Assembly: GCF_021012795.1 (NCBI RefSeq) | Contig: NZ_VFYU01000022.1 | Span: 62,001 to 126,000, forward strand | Origin: Psychrobacter sp. I-STPA10 | Lineage (GTDB): Bacteria; Pseudomonadota; Gammaproteobacteria; Pseudomonadales; Moraxellaceae | Direction: 5' to 3' | DNA: 64,000 nucleotides | Notes under the pieces: generated by a model | What the model was told of the DNA's origin: nothing | The model's input: the letters and a program-made list of their open reading frames with translations, nothing else | Databases searched by the model: none | Part shown: positions 55,306 to 63,387 of the stretch, piece by piece | How the letters are laid out: each line of letters starts with the position of its first letter | How positions within the stretch are numbered: position 1 is the first letter of the stretch | Program-made: the position numbers and the translations under genes

Positions 55306-56133
55306 TTAGAAACGGTAAGTCACACCAAGCTTCGCAATGGGTAACCATTCCATTAAATCTTCTGATTCAATTTCTCTCTCAATTTTTTGCTCAGCCAATG
55401 CACCATTTGCACCTGTTGCTTTTACTGTAGCATTCACCTTACCAAGGTAAGCACCACCAACCTCACCAAATACCCCCCAGTTACTGTTAATATTTGGACG
55501 GAAACCAATGGTAGCATAAGGAGCTAGCTTGTTACGATGCTTAATATCAGCCGTCACAGAACCGACATTGGTTAAATCGCCTGCTTCTAATGCTTTAGTT
55601 GGTGTGCCAACATAATAATGCTTACCATCAACTGGATAGTAGGCATTATCACCAGCCTCTTTTGCATTTGCTTTTGCAGTAAATTTATTATCAGGAACAA
55701 TGATTCCAGTGCTAACGGTAAACCAGTTACCAGCAGGACGTAAATTTACGCCCAAATACGGGTTGCTAAAGTCAGTCTCTAAGTCATAGTTAACATTATT
55801 GGCATCAAAGTCACCTCCAATAAGACTGGCTGCATCCCCACCAGCCCAACCTGCTTGTAATTCGGTGGTCTCATTTAGTCCCCAAGCAACATTTGCACCA
55901 TAACCCAATGTACCCGCCTCAGCACTGATTGCGGCTGGATGGATGGCCGTATCAAATAAAGTACGTGTGGTACCTACTACCGCACCTGTGGTATTGCGAA
56001 TAATACCTGCTTCTGGGTTATATTGATATTGAGGTGTCTCTACAGTAGAAGTTGTCGCTGCTGGTTGCGCCGCCATTGCCGCAGTTGTGCCCAATACTGC
56101 TACTGAAAGTACAGATAGTTTCATAAATCTCAT
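55306..56133 (-). CDS. Outer-membrane beta-barrel protein, paralogue 1
   Basis: 275 residues. A signal peptide (cleavage after AMA-AQPA) is followed by a barrel-like sequence ending in the outer-membrane signature LGVTYRF. GIIRNTTGAVVGTTRTLFDTAIHPAAISAEAGTLGYG and APYATIGFRPNINSNWGVFGEVG are shared nearly word for word with the protein encoded at 56785-57633. The ATG at 56133 has AGGAG 8 nt upstream. I do not recognise a named family with certainty; the overall look is OmpW-like. Function (pore or surface protein) is inferred. Confidence 0.75.
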   Translation of the reverse strand: MRFMKLSVLSVAVLGTTAAMAAQPAATTSTVETPQYQYNPEAGIIRNTTGAVVGTTRTLFDTAIHPAAISAEAGTLGYGANVAWGLNETTELQAGWAGGDAASLIGGDFDANNVNYDLETDFSNPYLGVNLRPAGNWFTVSTGIIVPDNKFTAKANAKEAGDNAYYPVDGKHYYVGTPTKALEAGDLTNVGSVTADIKHRNKLAPYATIGFRPNINSNWGVFGEVGGAYLGKVNATVKATGANGALAEQKIEREIESEDLMEWLPIAKLGVTYRF

Positions 56134-56417
56134 CACATCATCTCCTCAAAATAATAAATTAAACATAGTGTCGTGCCTTTACCTATATATAGCTCTGAAT
56201 ATAACTATATAATTGCTATCTAAGATATATTATTAAACCTTGTTTGCCATATAAAATCATCCCCTTCTTATAAGTTTTTATTTGAAGTTCTGTAAATTTT
56301 ACAGTGGTCTTGTAAGCAGTTATTACTCAAATGCACCATTAAAAATAGTAATGATAATAATAACTTACAGACAATTGATAATTCATCCTAATAACAAAAA
56401 ATCCATGAATATAATGC
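56134..56417. other. Promoter region of outer-membrane protein paralogue 1
   Basis: AT-rich, about 280 bp. A partial Fur-like ATGATAAT occurs near 56350, but the match to the full site is weak. No other signal was identified. Confidence 0.3.
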
Positions 56418-56784: not shown

Positions 56785-57633
56785 TTAGAAGCGGTAAGTC
56801 ACACCAAGCTTCGCAATTGGATACCATTTTAAATCGCTATCATTGATTTCTCTTTCTGCTTTTTCAATAAATTCATTAGGATTAGCGACAACATAAATAG
56901 GATTTTGTTCCGTTCCTTTATTTATTTCAATAGTACCATCAACATTAACATTTGACTTATAATCACCCATATAAGCAGCACCTACCTCAGCAAACATACC
57001 CCAACGATTGTTAATATTTGGGCGGAAACCAAGAGTCGCATAAGGAGCTAAAGCATTTTTGTTTTCTGCATGCACATGCACAGAAGTTTTATTAGTGACT
57101 TGATATTCATCACCATTAAGACTAATTTTTGCTTTGTTACCATCAGTTGGTGTTAATGTAACATCGATTTTATCGCGAGGTACGATAACACCAGCACCAA
57201 CTGTTAACCAGTTTTTAAAAGGACGTAACTGTGCACCTAAATAAGGGTTACTTGCCTTCACTTTATAATCTAAAGTACCTTTAAAGTCCTTGTATTCATC
57301 ACCCAGTACTTCACCCCAGTTGAGTCCAGAATCTTTGGCATTCAGTTCAATGTCACCATCGACATCCATACCAGACCAACCTGCTTGCAATTCAGTTGAT
57401 TCGTTTAGACCCCATGCTAAATTTGCACCATAACCTAGAGTACCAATCTCAGCACTAATGGCTGCTGGATGGATAGCGGTGTCAACCAAGGTTTTTGTTG
57501 TATCTACTACCGCACCAGTAGTATTGCGGATGATACCTTGCTCTGGGTTATATTCATAAGCAGGCTGTGCTGCCATTGCCGCAGTTGTACCCAATATAGC
57601 CATTGTTACAACAGATAGTTTGATAGCTTTCAT
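56785..57633 (-). CDS. Outer-membrane beta-barrel protein, paralogue 2
   Basis: 282 residues from the ATG at 57633, which has GAGG 6 nt upstream; the longer in-frame start is TTG. A signal peptide ends at AMA-AQPA. It shares the N-terminal IIRNTTGAVV and DTAIHPAAISAE blocks, the WGLNESTELQAGW strand and the C-terminal LGVTYRF with paralogue 1. The central loops differ strongly (an extra GEVLGDEYKDFKGTLDYKVK segment), as expected for surface-exposed loops. Three 28-bp tandem repeats begin 20 bp upstream. Confidence 0.75.
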   Translation of the reverse strand: MKAIKLSVVTMAILGTTAAMAAQPAYEYNPEQGIIRNTTGAVVDTTKTLVDTAIHPAAISAEIGTLGYGANLAWGLNESTELQAGWSGMDVDGDIELNAKDSGLNWGEVLGDEYKDFKGTLDYKVKASNPYLGAQLRPFKNWLTVGAGVIVPRDKIDVTLTPTDGNKAKISLNGDEYQVTNKTSVHVHAENKNALAPYATLGFRPNINNRWGMFAEVGAAYMGDYKSNVNVDGTIEINKGTEQNPIYVVANPNEFIEKAEREINDSDLKWYPIAKLGVTYRF

Positions 57634-57652
57634 ACATTTCCTCATAAGATAG

Positions 57653-57736
57653 TTAAAGTACAAATAAATCGATTAATTATTTAAAGTACAAATAAATCGA
57701 TTAATTATTTAAAGTACAAATAAATCGATTAATTAT
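57653..57736. repeat. Three perfect 28-bp tandem repeats upstream of an outer-membrane protein gene
   Basis: Identical units lie at 57653-57680, 57681-57708 and 57709-57736, each containing TTAAAGTACAAATAAATCGA. They are contiguous, without spacers. The first unit ends 20 bp from the ATG, so the array lies in the leader or core promoter. Confidence 0.95.
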
Positions 57737-57904
57737 AACGTACTTGAGCGCATTGTATCAGAATATTTCCTATTTTAACTGTAATAGTTTGTATTTTTAA
57801 TATTCTTAAACAAAATAATGGCTCAACGCAACTATTTATTAACATGTTATTAACATGGTGACACTGTAGCGCAAGTTTACTGCAAAGTCTATTTTGATGA
57901 TAAC

Positions 57905-57933
57905 GTGACTTCACCCGTGTCATCTATTACAAT
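57905..57933 (+). promoter_or_regulatory. Sigma70 promoter of ahcY-metF
   Basis: GTGACT (57905-57910) and TACAAT (57928-57933) are separated by 17 bp. Predicted initiation near 57939-57941 coincides with the first paired base of the structured leader. Confidence 0.6.
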
Positions 57934-57938
57934 AGCAT

Positions 57939-58083
57939 GGCTGAGAGGTGTTGCACCATTAATGGTTTATTGATATTAATCAAATAAACTTTTATGTCAG
58001 GCTCAGCATTCTATGCTAACTCATAAGATAATATCAACCTTTTGTTTATTATCGTTATTATAGGAAAAGATTAACGACACCTG
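57939..58083 (+). promoter_or_regulatory. Candidate diverged SAH riboswitch in the ahcY leader
   Basis: Stem P1 is GCTGAG (57940-57945) with CTCAGC (58002-58007). A perfect 6-bp pseudoknot is formed by AGGTGT (57946-57951) with ACACCT (58077-58082), the latter directly preceded by AACG. TTGCA follows the first pseudoknot strand, and CAGGCTC overlaps the P1 3' strand. Order and landmarks match the SAH riboswitch core (CGAG-GAGCGC-UGCA, CAGGCUCG, AACG-GCGCUC). Differences are covariation-like changes in the pseudoknot and a 65-nt insertion before its 3' strand. SAH is the substrate of AhcY, which supports the reading. Confidence 0.65.
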
Positions 58084-58134
58084 CGTTACCAATCTTTATT
58101 CGCTTATAGTTAATTTATTTAATAGGAGTCTATG

Positions 58135-59550
58135 ATGAACGCAGTGTCATCTTCGAACAATACCACCGCCGATTTTAATGATTACAAAGTAGCAGACATT
58201 TCTTTAGCAGATTATGGTCGCCGTGAAATTTCACTGGCAGAAGCGGAAATGCCTGCTCTAATGGGCCTACGTCGCCGTTATCAGTCTGAGCAGCCTTTGG
58301 CAGGTGCAAAGATTTTAGGCTGCATCCACATGACCATCCAGACCGCTGTACTTATAGAAACCTTAGTGGCATTAGGTGCTGAGGTACGCTGGACATCTTG
58401 TAATATCTTCTCCACTCAAGATCACGCTGCCGCCGCTATTGCTGCTGCAGGTATTCCTGTGTTTGCATGGAAAGGTGAAACAGAAGAAGAGTACGAATGG
58501 TGCTTACGTCAACAAGTACATGCTGGTGGTGAGTCCTCTGGTGAGCTTTGGGATGCCAATTTAATTTTGGATGATGGGGGTGATTTGACCGCCCTAGTGC
58601 ATGATCAATACCCTGAACTTCTTGCCAATATTCATGGTATCTCAGAAGAAACGACCACAGGGGTACACCGTCTGATTGATATGCTCAATAAAGGCACACT
58701 AAAAGTACCTGCGATTAATGTCAATGATGCGGTCACTAAGTCAAAAAATGATAATAAATATGGCTGCCGTCATAGCTTAAATGATGCCATCAAACGTGCA
58801 ACAGATATGTTACTTGCAGGTCGTCGTGCATTGGTTATTGGTTATGGCGATGTGGGTAAAGGCTCGGCACAAAGCTTACGCCAAGAAGGTATGATTGTTC
58901 GTGTCTCTGAGATTGATCCCATCTGTGCGATGCAGGCGTGTATGGATGGCTATGAATTGGTGTCACCTTATATCAATGGTAAAAATACCAATGAAGCAAG
59001 TGGTGTTAATAAACAATTGCTACAAGATACCGACCTGATTGTAACTACCACAGGTAACTATCATGTTTGTGATCGTCACATGCTGGCAGCACTAAAATCC
59101 GGTGCGGTGGTGTGTAACATTGGTCACTTTGATACTGAGATTGATACCCAGTTTATGCGTGATAACTGGCGTTGGGAAGAAGTCAAACCACAAGTACATC
59201 AAGTATTTCGCTCGGATGCCAAAGACGACTATATCTTGCTATTGGCAGAGGGTCGTCTTGTCAATCTGGGTAATGCCACAGGACACCCTTCTCGTGTCAT
59301 GGATGGCTCTTTTGCCAATCAAGTATTGGCACAAATGTATCTGTATGAACAAAAATTTGCGCAGCTTGATGAAGACAGTCGTTTTGATAATCTATATGTC
59401 AAAGTGCTACCCAAAAAACTTGATGAAGAAGTGGCAGCCGCAATGGTTGCTGGGTTTAATGGTGTGATGACACAGTTAACTACTGAGCAAGCTGAATATC
59501 TTGGCGTCCCTGTCGAAGGTCCTTTCAAAGCCGATGAATATAAGTACTAA
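58135..59550 (+). CDS. ahcY: S-adenosylhomocysteine hydrolase
   Basis: Splits SAH into adenosine and homocysteine, relieving methyltransferase inhibition. Blocks seen: [31 protein letters not shown], the NAD site [26 protein letters not shown] and the C-terminal [10 protein letters not shown]. At 471 residues it is the long bacterial form with the 40-residue insertion ([15 protein letters not shown] region). AGGAG is 6 nt from the ATG at 58135; the ATG at 58132 is a close alternative. metF follows 17 bp downstream, and a candidate SAH riboswitch precedes it. Confidence 0.97.
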
Positions 59551-59567: not shown

Positions 59568-60416
59568 ATGACGACCAAGCCTGATTTTTCTTTTGAATTT
59601 TATCCACCAAAGACGGATGCAGGACGAGAGAGCTTATTAACAACTTTTGATGAGCTTAATGCCCTTGCTCCCAAGTATTTTTCTGTGACTTATGGTGCAG
59701 GTGGTTCTACTCGTGAGCGTACCCTTGATATCATCAATCTACTCAATGGACGTAGTCAGACGCAAATAGCCCCACACATCTCTTGTATTGGTGATGATAA
59801 AGTACAAATTGCTGAGCTGTTATCTGACTATAAGGCATTAGGAATAAAGCGTTTGGTTGCCCTACGGGGTGATCTGCCTTCTGGACAAGTTGGTATGGGT
59901 GAGCTGCCCTTTGCGCGCGATTTAGTCGCATTTATCCGTGAGCAATCAGGTGATCACTTTTATATCGAAGTGGCTGCTTATCCTGAGATGCACCCACAAG
60001 CACGTAGCTTTAAAGAGGATGTGCAAAATTTAGTGAATAAATACAAGGCGGGTGCTGATGCGGCAATCACACAGTTTTTCTTTAATGCTGACAGCTATTT
60101 ATACTTGCGTGATGAGCTAGAAAAACAAGGTATTGATACACAAAAGCAGCCACTGATTGCAGGTATCATGCCCATCATTCATGCTACCAGTCTGATGCGT
60201 TTTGCTGATAGCTGTGGGGCAGATATTCCAAGATATGTGCGCAAGCAGCTTGCAGACTATGGTGATGATCGTAAGTCTATTCATCAATTTGGGTTTGATG
60301 TGGTGTATAAGCTGTGTGAACGCTTAATGGCAGAATCTGTTCCTGCGCTGCATTTTTATAGCATGAACAAAACTGAGCCCAATCGTGAGTTGGTAAAAGC
60401 TCTAGACTTAGCTTGA
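59568..60416 (+). CDS. metF: 5,10-methylenetetrahydrofolate reductase
   Basis: Makes 5-methyl-THF for methionine regeneration, FAD-dependent TIM barrel. FSFEFYPPKTDAG, SVTYGAGGSTRERT, RLVALRGDLP and QFFFNADSYLYLRDE are family blocks, and the C-terminal LHFYSMN is typical. It has 282 residues. GGGAG lies before the ATG, 17 bp after ahcY, so the two form an operon of the activated methyl cycle. A terminator hairpin follows. Confidence 0.97.
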   Translation: MTTKPDFSFEFYPPKTDAGRESLLTTFDELNALAPKYFSVTYGAGGSTRERTLDIINLLNGRSQTQIAPHISCIGDDKVQIAELLSDYKALGIKRLVALRGDLPSGQVGMGELPFARDLVAFIREQSGDHFYIEVAAYPEMHPQARSFKEDVQNLVNKYKAGADAAITQFFFNADSYLYLRDELEKQGIDTQKQPLIAGIMPIIHATSLMRFADSCGADIPRYVRKQLADYGDDRKSIHQFGFDVVYKLCERLMAESVPALHFYSMNKTEPNRELVKALDLA

Positions 60417-60540: not shown

Positions 60541-60607
60541 AAACAATAACTAATAATATTTTTTCATTAACCCTTATCCAAATCCTTTTATAAAGGTAAT
60601 ATTGTCT

Positions 60608-61618
60608 ATGCGACGCTTTTTTTACCTCCCTAGTTATTCTAATTCCTCTACAAACGCCTCTACTTCTCACCTGCAACACGCCTTCAATAATGATGCCTTA
60701 ATTACCTTAACCGAAGATATTTTTCATCATTGGTGTCGAGTGTTACGTGCCAAAGAGGGTGATAAAGCGATTTTTTTTGATGGTCATGGCGGTGAATATA
60801 CGGTGCAACTGCAACAGATTGAAAAAAAATCTGCCACTGCCAAAATCATTGATTGTAAGCATATTGACCATACCAATCCTTATTATACTCATATCGCCTT
60901 GGTCATGAGTCGAGGTGATCGTATGGATTATGCCTTACAAAAGGCAACAGAGATGGGCGTTAGTAGTATCCAACTGTTGACCAGTCAACATGGTGAGGTA
61001 TTTTTAAAACCCAATCAGGTGGATAAAAAGATGGCGCACTGGCAGCAAGTGATGCTATCTGCTTGTGAGCAATGTGGTCTTAATCGTCCACCTTTATTAC
61101 TCAAACCTGTGGCTCTTAATGATTGGCTAGCAGGTGAGGTTGGTGAAATAAGCGATACCTTACTGCCACTAGCAAATATTGACTATTATCAAAAATTACA
61201 AGCATCCCATAAAGCAATGTCTTTATGGGATGAATCTCACTCTAACGATATTGAGACATCTAAACCTTTACGTTTAGTATTAGCTGTACCTAACGAACCT
61301 ACTTCTAGTACAACTGATTCTGATGCATCTACTACTCATGCAAATGCACACACAAAATTACCTGCCAGCCAGTTAAGGACAACAGTAAACACAACAGAGA
61401 AAATCAAGCATTATATTCAAAACAGCCCTAATTGTGCTTTTTTTACCCTGCTAATTGGTGCTGAAGGCGGATTAAGTGATGCTGAGCTATCACAAGCCAT
61501 AGCTAAACAATTTATTCCTTGGCAAATTGGTAATCGTATTTTACGCACAGAGACCGCACCAGTTGTTGCCTTGGCAACCCTACAAGTACTAGCCAGTATG
61601 GCAAAAACAGATATGTAA
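60608..61618 (+). CDS. rsmE: 16S rRNA (uracil-1498-N3)-methyltransferase
   Basis: A SPOUT-class methyltransferase that modifies U1498. MRRFFYLP is the usual N-terminus; HHWCRVLRAKEGD and FFDGHGGEY belong to the PUA-like part. VMSRGDRMDYALQKATEMGVSSIQLL, and near the C-terminus LLIGAEGGLSDAEL and GNRILRTETAPVVALATLQ, form the knot. It has 336 residues against 243 in E. coli. The surplus is a Ser/Thr/Asn-rich insertion (about 180-260) before the knot. The ATG at 60608 has AAGG 11 nt upstream; a TTG 6 bp earlier has better spacing and may be used. Confidence 0.93.
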   Translation: MRRFFYLPSYSNSSTNASTSHLQHAFNNDALITLTEDIFHHWCRVLRAKEGDKAIFFDGHGGEYTVQLQQIEKKSATAKIIDCKHIDHTNPYYTHIALVMSRGDRMDYALQKATEMGVSSIQLLTSQHGEVFLKPNQVDKKMAHWQQVMLSACEQCGLNRPPLLLKPVALNDWLAGEVGEISDTLLPLANIDYYQKLQASHKAMSLWDESHSNDIETSKPLRLVLAVPNEPTSSTTDSDASTTHANAHTKLPASQLRTTVNTTEKIKHYIQNSPNCAFFTLLIGAEGGLSDAELSQAIAKQFIPWQIGNRILRTETAPVVALATLQVLASMAKTDM

Positions 61619-61695
61619 TTAACGATTAATTTTTTTAAACTGGCTTTATATAATAATATAACATAGCGCAATGCTAAGTCATCTTGGAGATTTTT

Positions 61696-63387
61696 ATGCT
61701 ATTTAATGCTGAGATTGAGTCCTACCTACTCTCTAAGCTTTGTTTTTATTCTGAAGAAGGTATTTTTATCCTTGATGATAAACTTAATTACTTATGGGTC
61801 AATCACAGCTTTGAAGAAACAATCGGTTTTCCAGCAGATTATTTAATGGGCAAACCTTTAAGTTTTTTTCCAATAGAAAAATTAATACAAAATAAAAAAT
61901 CTTTGACCTATCGCATCTTGCAGAGTTTACAAAATACAGGGTATTTTCAAGAAGATATTAACTGCTTAAATCCTCATGGTATTGCGTTATATACCAATCT
62001 GACCATTTGGCAAATACCTTACCAACAACACATCTATTTTGTTGGGTTATTGCGAAATCGTGATGCAAATGCCACCAACATCCCACAGTATCATTTGCCG
62101 CAGCTTAGTTATTACAATCAATTTACAGGGCTACCTAACCGCAGTGTTTTTATCAGCTTATTAAGTGAGTATCTCTTAGACACTTACAAACAGCTTGTGG
62201 TGGTAAGATTTAGTATTGACCATTTTGATACCATCTCCAACGCATTACCAGATGAAGATGTCACCAGCTTGCTAAAACAACTTACCCAGCGCATCCAAAA
62301 TTTGACACTCAATGATTTAAAAATGTTTGCACATTTTAATTTGAGTGACTTTGCCATGTTTTTTGAAGTCAGTGACATTCATCTTATTCGCAATGAGCTA
62401 GAGCAAATCATTAATTCATGTGAGTTACCCTTCACTTTGGGCAAAGATAGATTTTATTTGCATCTGTCGATGGGAGTGAGTCATCACAACTCGCATGGGG
62501 AACAAGCGGACATATTATTGCGTGCAGCAGAACATGCCTTAGCCTATCAAGAGCGTCATGGCGGTGATGGCATACACTGGTATACCCATCAGCTCAATCC
62601 AAACCTTCTTGAAGATATGAAGTTTAAAGCACAGCTACGTGATGCAATGAATGAACAGCAGTTTATTCCTTATTATCAGCCCAAATTTGATCTACAAACT
62701 GGGCAATTAGTAGGCTTTGAAGCGTTAGTTCGCTGGCAACATCCAGAGCGTGGTATCTTAGAGCCACAATATTTTTTACAACCTATCATTGAAAGTCAGC
62801 TTTCTTATGATCTATTTTGTCAAATGCTATTAACTGTGATCACTGATCTTAATACATGGCAACAGCTAAATAAAGACATTGGTATCTGCATTAATGCAGA
62901 TGCTTCTGAATTTTGTCAGCCAACATTTGTCTCTTTTGTTAAAAACTTACTCAGTATCAATCCTAAATGCCAAAATCAACTGCATATAGAAGTGACGGAA
63001 TCCTCTTTAATGAGTAAAAATGATCAAACTACTGAAATATTTAATCAATTACAAAAAATTGGGGTATTACTGGCGTTGGATGATTTTGGCACTGGTTATG
63101 CTTCACTGAGTTATTTATCTTATTATAATTTTGACTTTTTAAAAATTGATAAAAGCTTTGTCAAAGATATAGATACCAACGCCACACAATTAAGTATTGT
63201 CAAATCCATTATTACGCTCGCCAAAAGCCTTAATATGCAAGTCATTGCTGAAGGAATAGAGTACCAAAAACAAGCTGAAGTATTAAAGCAGTTAGGCTGT
63301 GAATATGCACAAGGTTACTATTTTGGTCGCCCCATGGATGCTCAAGCAGCCACGGTAATGATACTAGAACATTTACATCAGCAATAA
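61696..63387 (+). CDS. PAS-GGDEF(degenerate)-EAL protein, likely c-di-GMP phosphodiesterase
   Basis: 563 residues from the ATG at 61696 (GGAG 6 nt upstream; an upstream TTG start is not needed). A PAS sensor domain is at about 15-110 (GIFILDDKLNYLWVNHSFEETIGF). The GGDEF domain at about 140-290 lacks its signature: the expected RLGGDEFA position reads HFNLSDFA, so cyclase activity is unlikely. The EAL domain (about 310-555) keeps EALVRW, EVTES, DDFGTGYASLSYL, KIDKSFV, AEGIE and QGYYFGRP, so phosphodiesterase activity is expected. It lies 77 bp after rsmE. Confidence 0.92.
   Translation: MLFNAEIESYLLSKLCFYSEEGIFILDDKLNYLWVNHSFEETIGFPADYLMGKPLSFFPIEKLIQNKKSLTYRILQSLQNTGYFQEDINCLNPHGIALYTNLTIWQIPYQQHIYFVGLLRNRDANATNIPQYHLPQLSYYNQFTGLPNRSVFISLLSEYLLDTYKQLVVVRFSIDHFDTISNALPDEDVTSLLKQLTQRIQNLTLNDLKMFAHFNLSDFAMFFEVSDIHLIRNELEQIINSCELPFTLGKDRFYLHLSMGVSHHNSHGEQADILLRAAEHALAYQERHGGDGIHWYTHQLNPNLLEDMKFKAQLRDAMNEQQFIPYYQPKFDLQTGQLVGFEALVRWQHPERGILEPQYFLQPIIESQLSYDLFCQMLLTVITDLNTWQQLNKDIGICINADASEFCQPTFVSFVKNLLSINPKCQNQLHIEVTESSLMSKNDQTTEIFNQLQKIGVLLALDDFGTGYASLSYLSYYNFDFLKIDKSFVKDIDTNATQLSIVKSIITLAKSLNMQVIAEGIEYQKQAEVLKQLGCEYAQGYYFGRPMDAQAATVMILEHLHQQ

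Follow-up and report, generated by a model that had tools for sequence, protein, structure and literature searches.

The window, by which we mean the whole 64-kb stretch of DNA that was analysed, carries an ahcY gene for SAH hydrolase followed by metF and an rsmE-like gene, with a putative promoter and a structured leader in front of ahcY. SAH is a toxic by-product. The features of interest, by position, strand and content, are the following.

57905-57910 and 57928-57933, forward: promoter GTGACT-17 bp-TACAAT, with a predicted transcription start at P1
57940-57945, forward: 5' strand of helix P1, GCTGAG, pairing with 58002-58007; the helix covaries
57946-57951, forward: 5' strand of the pseudoknot, AGGTGT, pairing with 58077-58082
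57952-57954, forward: UGC, invariant in the 32-row alignment, where TGC[AG] was a parser landmark
57957-57996, forward: stem-loop P2, 57957-57963 with 57990-57996 plus an inner A+T-rich hairpin
57999-58001, forward: AGG, invariant in the 32-row alignment, where it was a parser landmark
58002-58007, forward: 3' strand of P1, CTCAGC, pairing with 57940-57945
58008-58072, forward: linker of 65 nt with hairpin P4 predicted at 58009-58065 (-10.2 kcal/mol, z -2.08)
58073-58076, forward: AACG, invariant in the 32-row alignment, where it was a parser landmark
58077-58087, forward: switching strand ACACCTGCGTT, consisting of the pseudoknot 3' strand (58077-58082) and GCGTT, with two alternative partners
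58124-58128, forward: Shine-Dalgarno (SD) sequence AGGAG, 6 nt 5' of the ATG at 58135
58135-58147, forward: probable ahcY start ATG (58135) and codons 2-5, partner of the switching strand
58132-59550, forward: ahcY, SAH hydrolase (Pfam AdoHcyase, E=1.9e-122)
59568-60416, forward: metF, methylenetetrahydrofolate reductase, 17 bases 3' of ahcY (Pfam MTHFR, E=3.2e-78)
60602-61618, forward: rsmE-like 16S rRNA methyltransferase of the COG1385 kind (Pfam Methyltrans_RNA and PUA_4)

The host is a Psychrobacter; among named proteins, the best AhcY match is 86% identical. The rsmE-like gene follows metF after a gap of 185 bases and possibly forms one operon with ahcY and metF. The available text of Leyn et al. 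(2014; PMC4239095) names COG1385 in the Moraxellaceae SAH regulon, and the gene order in the window is the one given there. A PAS-GGDEF-EAL protein (61684-63387, forward) is encoded 3' of rsmE. On the other side, a divergent gene (56785-57663, reverse) has at its start a 28-bp A+T-rich unit in three perfect tandem copies (57653-57736), which lie between this gene and the candidate riboswitch promoter. It and its neighbor (55306-56136, reverse) encode similar-looking proteins with signal-peptide-like starts and common segments (e.g., GIIRNTTGAVV), and neither protein had a Pfam match at E<=0.001.

What kind of leader is this? The first-pass annotation had taken it for an SAH riboswitch controlling ahcY-metF, on the strength of P1, a perfect 6-bp pseudoknot and the landmarks TTGCA, CAGGCTC and AACG in the correct order. 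The landmarks are all in place (57951-57955, 57998-58004 and 58073-58076), and both helices are present as described and conserved in relatives. The 3' strand of the pseudoknot (ACACCT) forms all six pairs with its partner in the window; P2 is imperfect there, with five of seven pairs forming. At the level of sequence comparison, the riboswitch reading itself is supported by conservation, covariation and a leave-one-out search (E=1e-11). The UGC, AGG and AACG elements are present in the window and are matched by the leave-one-out model, while their invariance in the relatives is partly by construction, because the parser used them as landmarks. We take UGC to be the presumed equivalent of contacts G15 and C16, AGG that of A29 and AACG that of C46. 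In the available text of PMC7057144, G15, C16, A29 and C46 are the bases that contact SAH.

The promoter had likewise been proposed from the window, with a 17-bp spacing and a start exactly at P1. Both details are present, but the score of this single match is at chance level (three promoter-like sites found, 2.4 expected). The promoter is nevertheless upheld because it is conserved: TGAC-17 bp-TACAAT lies 6-8 nt 5' of P1 in all 30 distinct Psychrobacter leaders.

Covariation was assessed on the conserved blocks of 32 distinct rows from Psychrobacter, Moraxella, Alkanindiges, Acinetobacter and metagenome-assembled relatives. Loci were parsed by exhaustive enumeration of landmark combinations with maximised pairing, and the percentages of paired cells are inflated because the parser chose among combinations by pairing; with that limit, 96.9% of cells in P1 and the pseudoknot are paired, against 29-39% when the partner is slid, and the pseudoknot taken separately reaches 100%. 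No fitting to the structure went into the MAFFT alignments A2 and A4, but their rows came from the same pairing-maximising parser. Double changes occur in seven of the 12 P1 and pseudoknot pairs (four of six and three of six, respectively) and in six of the seven pairs of P2, in which 82.2% of cells are paired. The pseudoknot occurs as AGGTGT/ACACCT, AGGTGT/GCACCT, AGATGT/ACATCT, AGATGC/GCATCT, GGATGC/GCATCC, GGGTGC/GCATCC and GGATGC/GCATCT, to which wider relatives add GGGCGC/GCGCCC, GAGCGC/GCGCTC and GAGCGT/ACGCTC. In P1, the window itself has a double change, T57942-A58005, where 97 of 98 other parsed genomes have C-G. The impression of covariation gained from the window, where both pseudoknot strands had changed yet still paired, is thus borne out. 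A lack of conservation or covariation in related ahcY leaders had been put forward as one way to refute the reading; in the alignment both P1 and the pseudoknot covary, and the element is found in 99 of 100 Psychrobacter genomes, so that the reading withstands this check.

Why would standard models overlook such an element? The first-pass annotation had suspected that they might, and had advised a low-threshold search with the Rfam SAH riboswitch model. That search gave no match to RF01057 (Rfam 15) at E<=10 in 601 nt around the leader; the five matches of any kind at this threshold are at chance level and include no riboswitch family, RF01727 (SAM/SAH) being absent as well. At gathering level no Rfam family was found in the whole 64-kb window, and in the whole genome RF01057 has a single chance-level match, elsewhere (13.8 bits, E=9). 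Among 100 Psychrobacter genomes, none has a match over the RF01057 gathering cut-off (which is a detection threshold and not a property of the RNA) and eight have one at E<=0.1. The likely reason is that the Rfam model pairs P1 and P2 and reads the pseudoknot as plain sequence, so that recoding of the pseudoknot costs score. A DNA similarity search within the genus recovered fragments, mostly the promoter and the 5' part of the core, with the whole element found only in its own genome.

Models built from the relatives behave differently. A covariance model made from 31 aligned relatives, with the window sequence left out and only the P1 and P2 pairs specified (R3), had a single match across the 64-kb window at E<=1, namely 57936-58093 (45.5 bits, E=1e-11). 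A second model (R2), which includes the window sequence and draws 17 of its 32 training rows from Psychrobacter, matches 100 of 100 sampled Psychrobacter genomes at E<=0.01 and 95 of them at E<=1e-6. Four of the five genomes with weaker matches have a complete element with a long linker. In the fifth (G032; assembly 89% complete), no ahcY was found, and its weak match is for that reason probably due to chance. Direct parsing, in a census anchored on the coding arm, placed a complete element in front of ahcY in 99 of the 100 genomes, with six pseudoknot pairs in all 99. Additional weak R2 matches (22-24 bits) stand beside the main one in eight genomes; the two that were inspected (in G075 and G049) do not adjoin an ahcY and are taken as chance.

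The relatives also connect the branch to ordinary members of the class. Of 199 genomes sampled from the wider family, RF01057 matches 91 at E<=0.1 and 27 above the cut-off; the scores are continuous, with examples at 34.5 bits (Psychrobacter L140), 39.3 (L134) and 61.2 (L113), which indicates a slope from normal members down to the Psychrobacter branch. SAH riboswitches as such are common, as 153 of 369 genomes in a sample of the class exceed the cut-off. Within the literature searched, no paper was found that names both an SAH riboswitch and Psychrobacter. Regulon surveys based on Rfam would misread this genus as having lost the riboswitch, when 99 of 100 sampled genomes carry one, and the case illustrates how a model without pseudoknot pairs drops those members in which the pseudoknot has been recoded.

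The linker between P1 and AACG had been described as unusually long, at about 65 nt, in front of the 3' pseudoknot strand. Its length is confirmed and lies above the genus median of 42 nt, but it is far from the extremes: across 99 Psychrobacter genomes, linkers range from 23 to 240 nt, ten of them being at least 60 nt, and in Moraxella caprae the linker reaches 257 nt. Nor is it an open spacer. The mean end-to-end distance of 58 linkers of at least 20 nt is 10.4, compared with 16.6 for mononucleotide shuffles, and the mean folding z is -3.3 in 30 Psychrobacter and -2.8 in 31 other linkers. Two of three 14-nt linkers and that of L058 have no convincing fold, and z exceeds -1 for those of L014 and L039. 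Since the linkers mostly fold as hairpins closing near their ends, the linker is best described as a length-variable hairpin, P4, which would carry the 3' strand of the pseudoknot back to the core. Members recognised by Rfam have inserts at the same place (23 nt in Pseudomonas L104, 24 nt in L124), and the long P4 is therefore an elaboration inside the class and not a new architecture. With a natural P4 series of 23-240 nt in one genus and a core that hardly changes, linker tolerance can be tested directly. (The M. caprae linker, in L042:2149-2521, has strong, partly G+C-rich stems and a z of -7.8, which suggests a repeat inserted into P4. L039 is a contig under the title Streptomyces cinereus JCM 3040, with a Moraxella-like ahcY, 82% identical to that of the window, and leader; mislabelling or contamination of this record is probable.)

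How might such an aptamer control ahcY? Here the first-pass annotation overlooked what is likely to be the expression platform, in which the 3' strand of the pseudoknot is set against codons 2-5 of ahcY. The switching strand is complementary to AACGCAGTGT (58138-58147) except for one bulged C, and the unconstrained minimum-energy fold of the leader holds the pairing of 58077-58087 with 58138-58147. This codon helix excludes the pseudoknot, because both use 58077-58082.

The codons themselves bear the mark of this pairing. In 30 Psychrobacter ahcY genes there are 262 codon columns with an invariant amino acid within the first 380 residues, and only five of these columns use a single codon; codons 3 (GCA) and 4 (GTG), identical in 30 of 30 genes, are among the five. 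Codon 2 is GAC in 28 genes and AAC in two, and thus always ends in C. In 24 genes of the Acinetobacter group, codon 2 is AAC throughout and 23 genes have GCG as codon 3; the sole exception, GCA in Acinetobacter qingfengensis, is accompanied by a matching change in the leader, where CTGCG replaces CCGCG. Codon 4 is variable in this group (GTT in 18, GTG in four, GTC and GGA in one each). The actual duplex equals or exceeds 95% of its synonymous versions in strength at 27 of 30 Psychrobacter, 23 of 24 Acinetobacter-group, two of three Moraxella-type and three of five Alkanindiges-type loci, and at none of 25 loci outside this core group. In the switching helix 99.4% of cells are paired. One column alternates between U-A and C-G (18 to 14); it is the only one that covaries, and most of the 14 rows with C-G have a common ancestry. 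At the Psychrobacter locus L014, the sequence CTGCT disrupts one pair of this helix.

As a proxy for the bound state, 58 leaders were folded with both pseudoknot strands blocked and P1 forced. Codons 2-5 became free by more than 0.1 in all 30 Psychrobacter and Moraxella-type leaders and in none of 28 Acinetobacter and Alkanindiges-type leaders. Masking of the SD sequence is unsupported, as the stretch from SD to AUG is on average not opened in this proxy (0.38 to 0.35), and it follows that any real gate would operate behind the start codon. We regard the codon 2-5 gate as well supported in the Psychrobacter branch; for Acinetobacter, the evidence for a gate consists of the codon constraint and the covarying column.

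Beyond these genera, a codon-side platform for the whole SAH class is only partly supported. Thirty loci were taken class-wide, of which three could not be parsed; in the remaining 27 the strand often pairs near the SD or the start, with eight at p<=0.05 against dinucleotide shuffles. Among 32 loci collected earlier, the same shuffle test was passed by seven of 10 Moraxellaceae of this group, four of four of the SUP05 type and one of two from Pseudomonas, and by none of five from genus g2 or the single L133. At the other ten, the family loci L112, L120, L122-L124, L126, L127 and L130-L132, the partner of the strand lies 42-97 nt 5' of the assigned start, with p<=0.05 in 10 of 10; this is a different expression platform. 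In another member of that family (G108, at L186:1620-1797), the leader runs for 223 nt from the pseudoknot strand to the ATG and contains an insert whose ends are 21-nt inverted repeats, AGGGCGTGTT and AACACGCCCT; neither the pseudoknot strand nor the ATGAACGCAG start has been lost.

On this evidence we think it probable that the leader belongs to a diverged branch of SAH riboswitches, present throughout Psychrobacter and invisible to Rfam, in which a switch at codons 2-5 turns ahcY on in response to SAH. Its homology and conservation, the covariation of P1, P2 and the pseudoknot, the mutually exclusive pairings and the constraint on the codons are computational observations; that SAH is the ligand, that the direction is ON and that control is translational, we infer. 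Transcription would begin at P1. At low SAH, the 3' strand would pair with codons 2-5, just behind the start codon, and hinder initiation. At high SAH, the ligand would be bound at the invariant bases of UGC, AGG and AACG once the pseudoknot forms, and with the strand locked in the pseudoknot the start would be free, allowing ahcY, metF and perhaps rsmE to be translated; SAH would then be removed by the enzyme that is made. This is the logic of the class, since SAH riboswitches upregulate ahcY, with an affinity of 32 nM for SAH and 1,000-fold weaker binding of SAM, according to the available text of PMC7057144. In the folding proxy, leaving the unconstrained fold costs the leader of the window about 9 kcal/mol, which by our estimate the 6-bp pseudoknot and the ligand together could supply. 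As for the genus as a whole, we lean towards a common design in which a strand held 23-240 nt off on P4 toggles between the aptamer and codons 2-5, codons that would be fixed by the RNA and not by the protein. If true, this would be a precise and testable platform in which coding sequence serves as one arm of the switch.

The main competitor keeps the SAH aptamer and places control in transcription, by premature termination or Rho access, with the pairing to codons 2-5 being incidental. It draws on a pyrimidine-rich, T-rich GCGTTTTTATTCTTTTT found 3' of the pseudoknot strand in many Psychrobacter leaders, and on the fact that a single column of the switching helix covaries. However, no terminator-like site was found at 57800-58200, which favours translational control, and the long T run of those leaders is absent in the window; transcriptional control also leaves the frozen synonymous sites of codons 3-4 and the C-ending codon 2 unexplained. 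We consider it unlikely. It is more improbable still that the same fold serves another or broader ligand, for instance SAM and SAH alike: the pseudoknot strands and P4 are indeed unlike those of typical members, but the presumed equivalents of the SAH contacts G15, C16, A29 and C46 are kept (available text of PMC7057144) and the gene in 99 of 100 genomes is ahcY, whose enzyme removes SAH. That the leader acts in some other way, such as by a protein-binding site, with its SAH-like features a coincidence or a relic, would accord with the negative Rfam result, but is scarcely credible: RF01057 is matched by the gene context, by the order of the landmarks and by three helices that covary, the slope to Rfam-recognised relatives is continuous, and the leave-one-out match has E=1e-11.

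The element is like the RF01057 SAH riboswitch in having P1, P2, the pseudoknot and UGC, AGG and AACG in order, and in its place before ahcY-metF. It is unlike RF01057 in its pseudoknot (AGGUGU/ACACCU in the window, GAGCGC/GCGCUC in the consensus), in its A+T-rich P2 and longer P4, and in failing to reach the Rfam cut-off in any of 100 genomes of the genus. Class membership, as judged from sequence, rests on the common helices, the contact bases and the gene context, the Rfam score being the one tested point on which the element falls short. The available text of PMC4239095 reports SAH riboswitches, detected by Rfam models, in two of four Moraxellaceae genomes. The SAM-II long loops family (RF01726; PMC2864571) is, going by its name and the available text of that source, a long-loop pseudoknot riboswitch with an Rfam model of its own; it differs in aptamer and ligand, and the likeness is one of analogy only. 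The SAH riboswitches of Acinetobacter and Alkanindiges have the same helices and pair their strand with codons 2-4 as CCGCG/CGCGG, differing in the letters of the pseudoknot, in their linkers of 14-50 nt and in codons that are not freed in the folding proxy.
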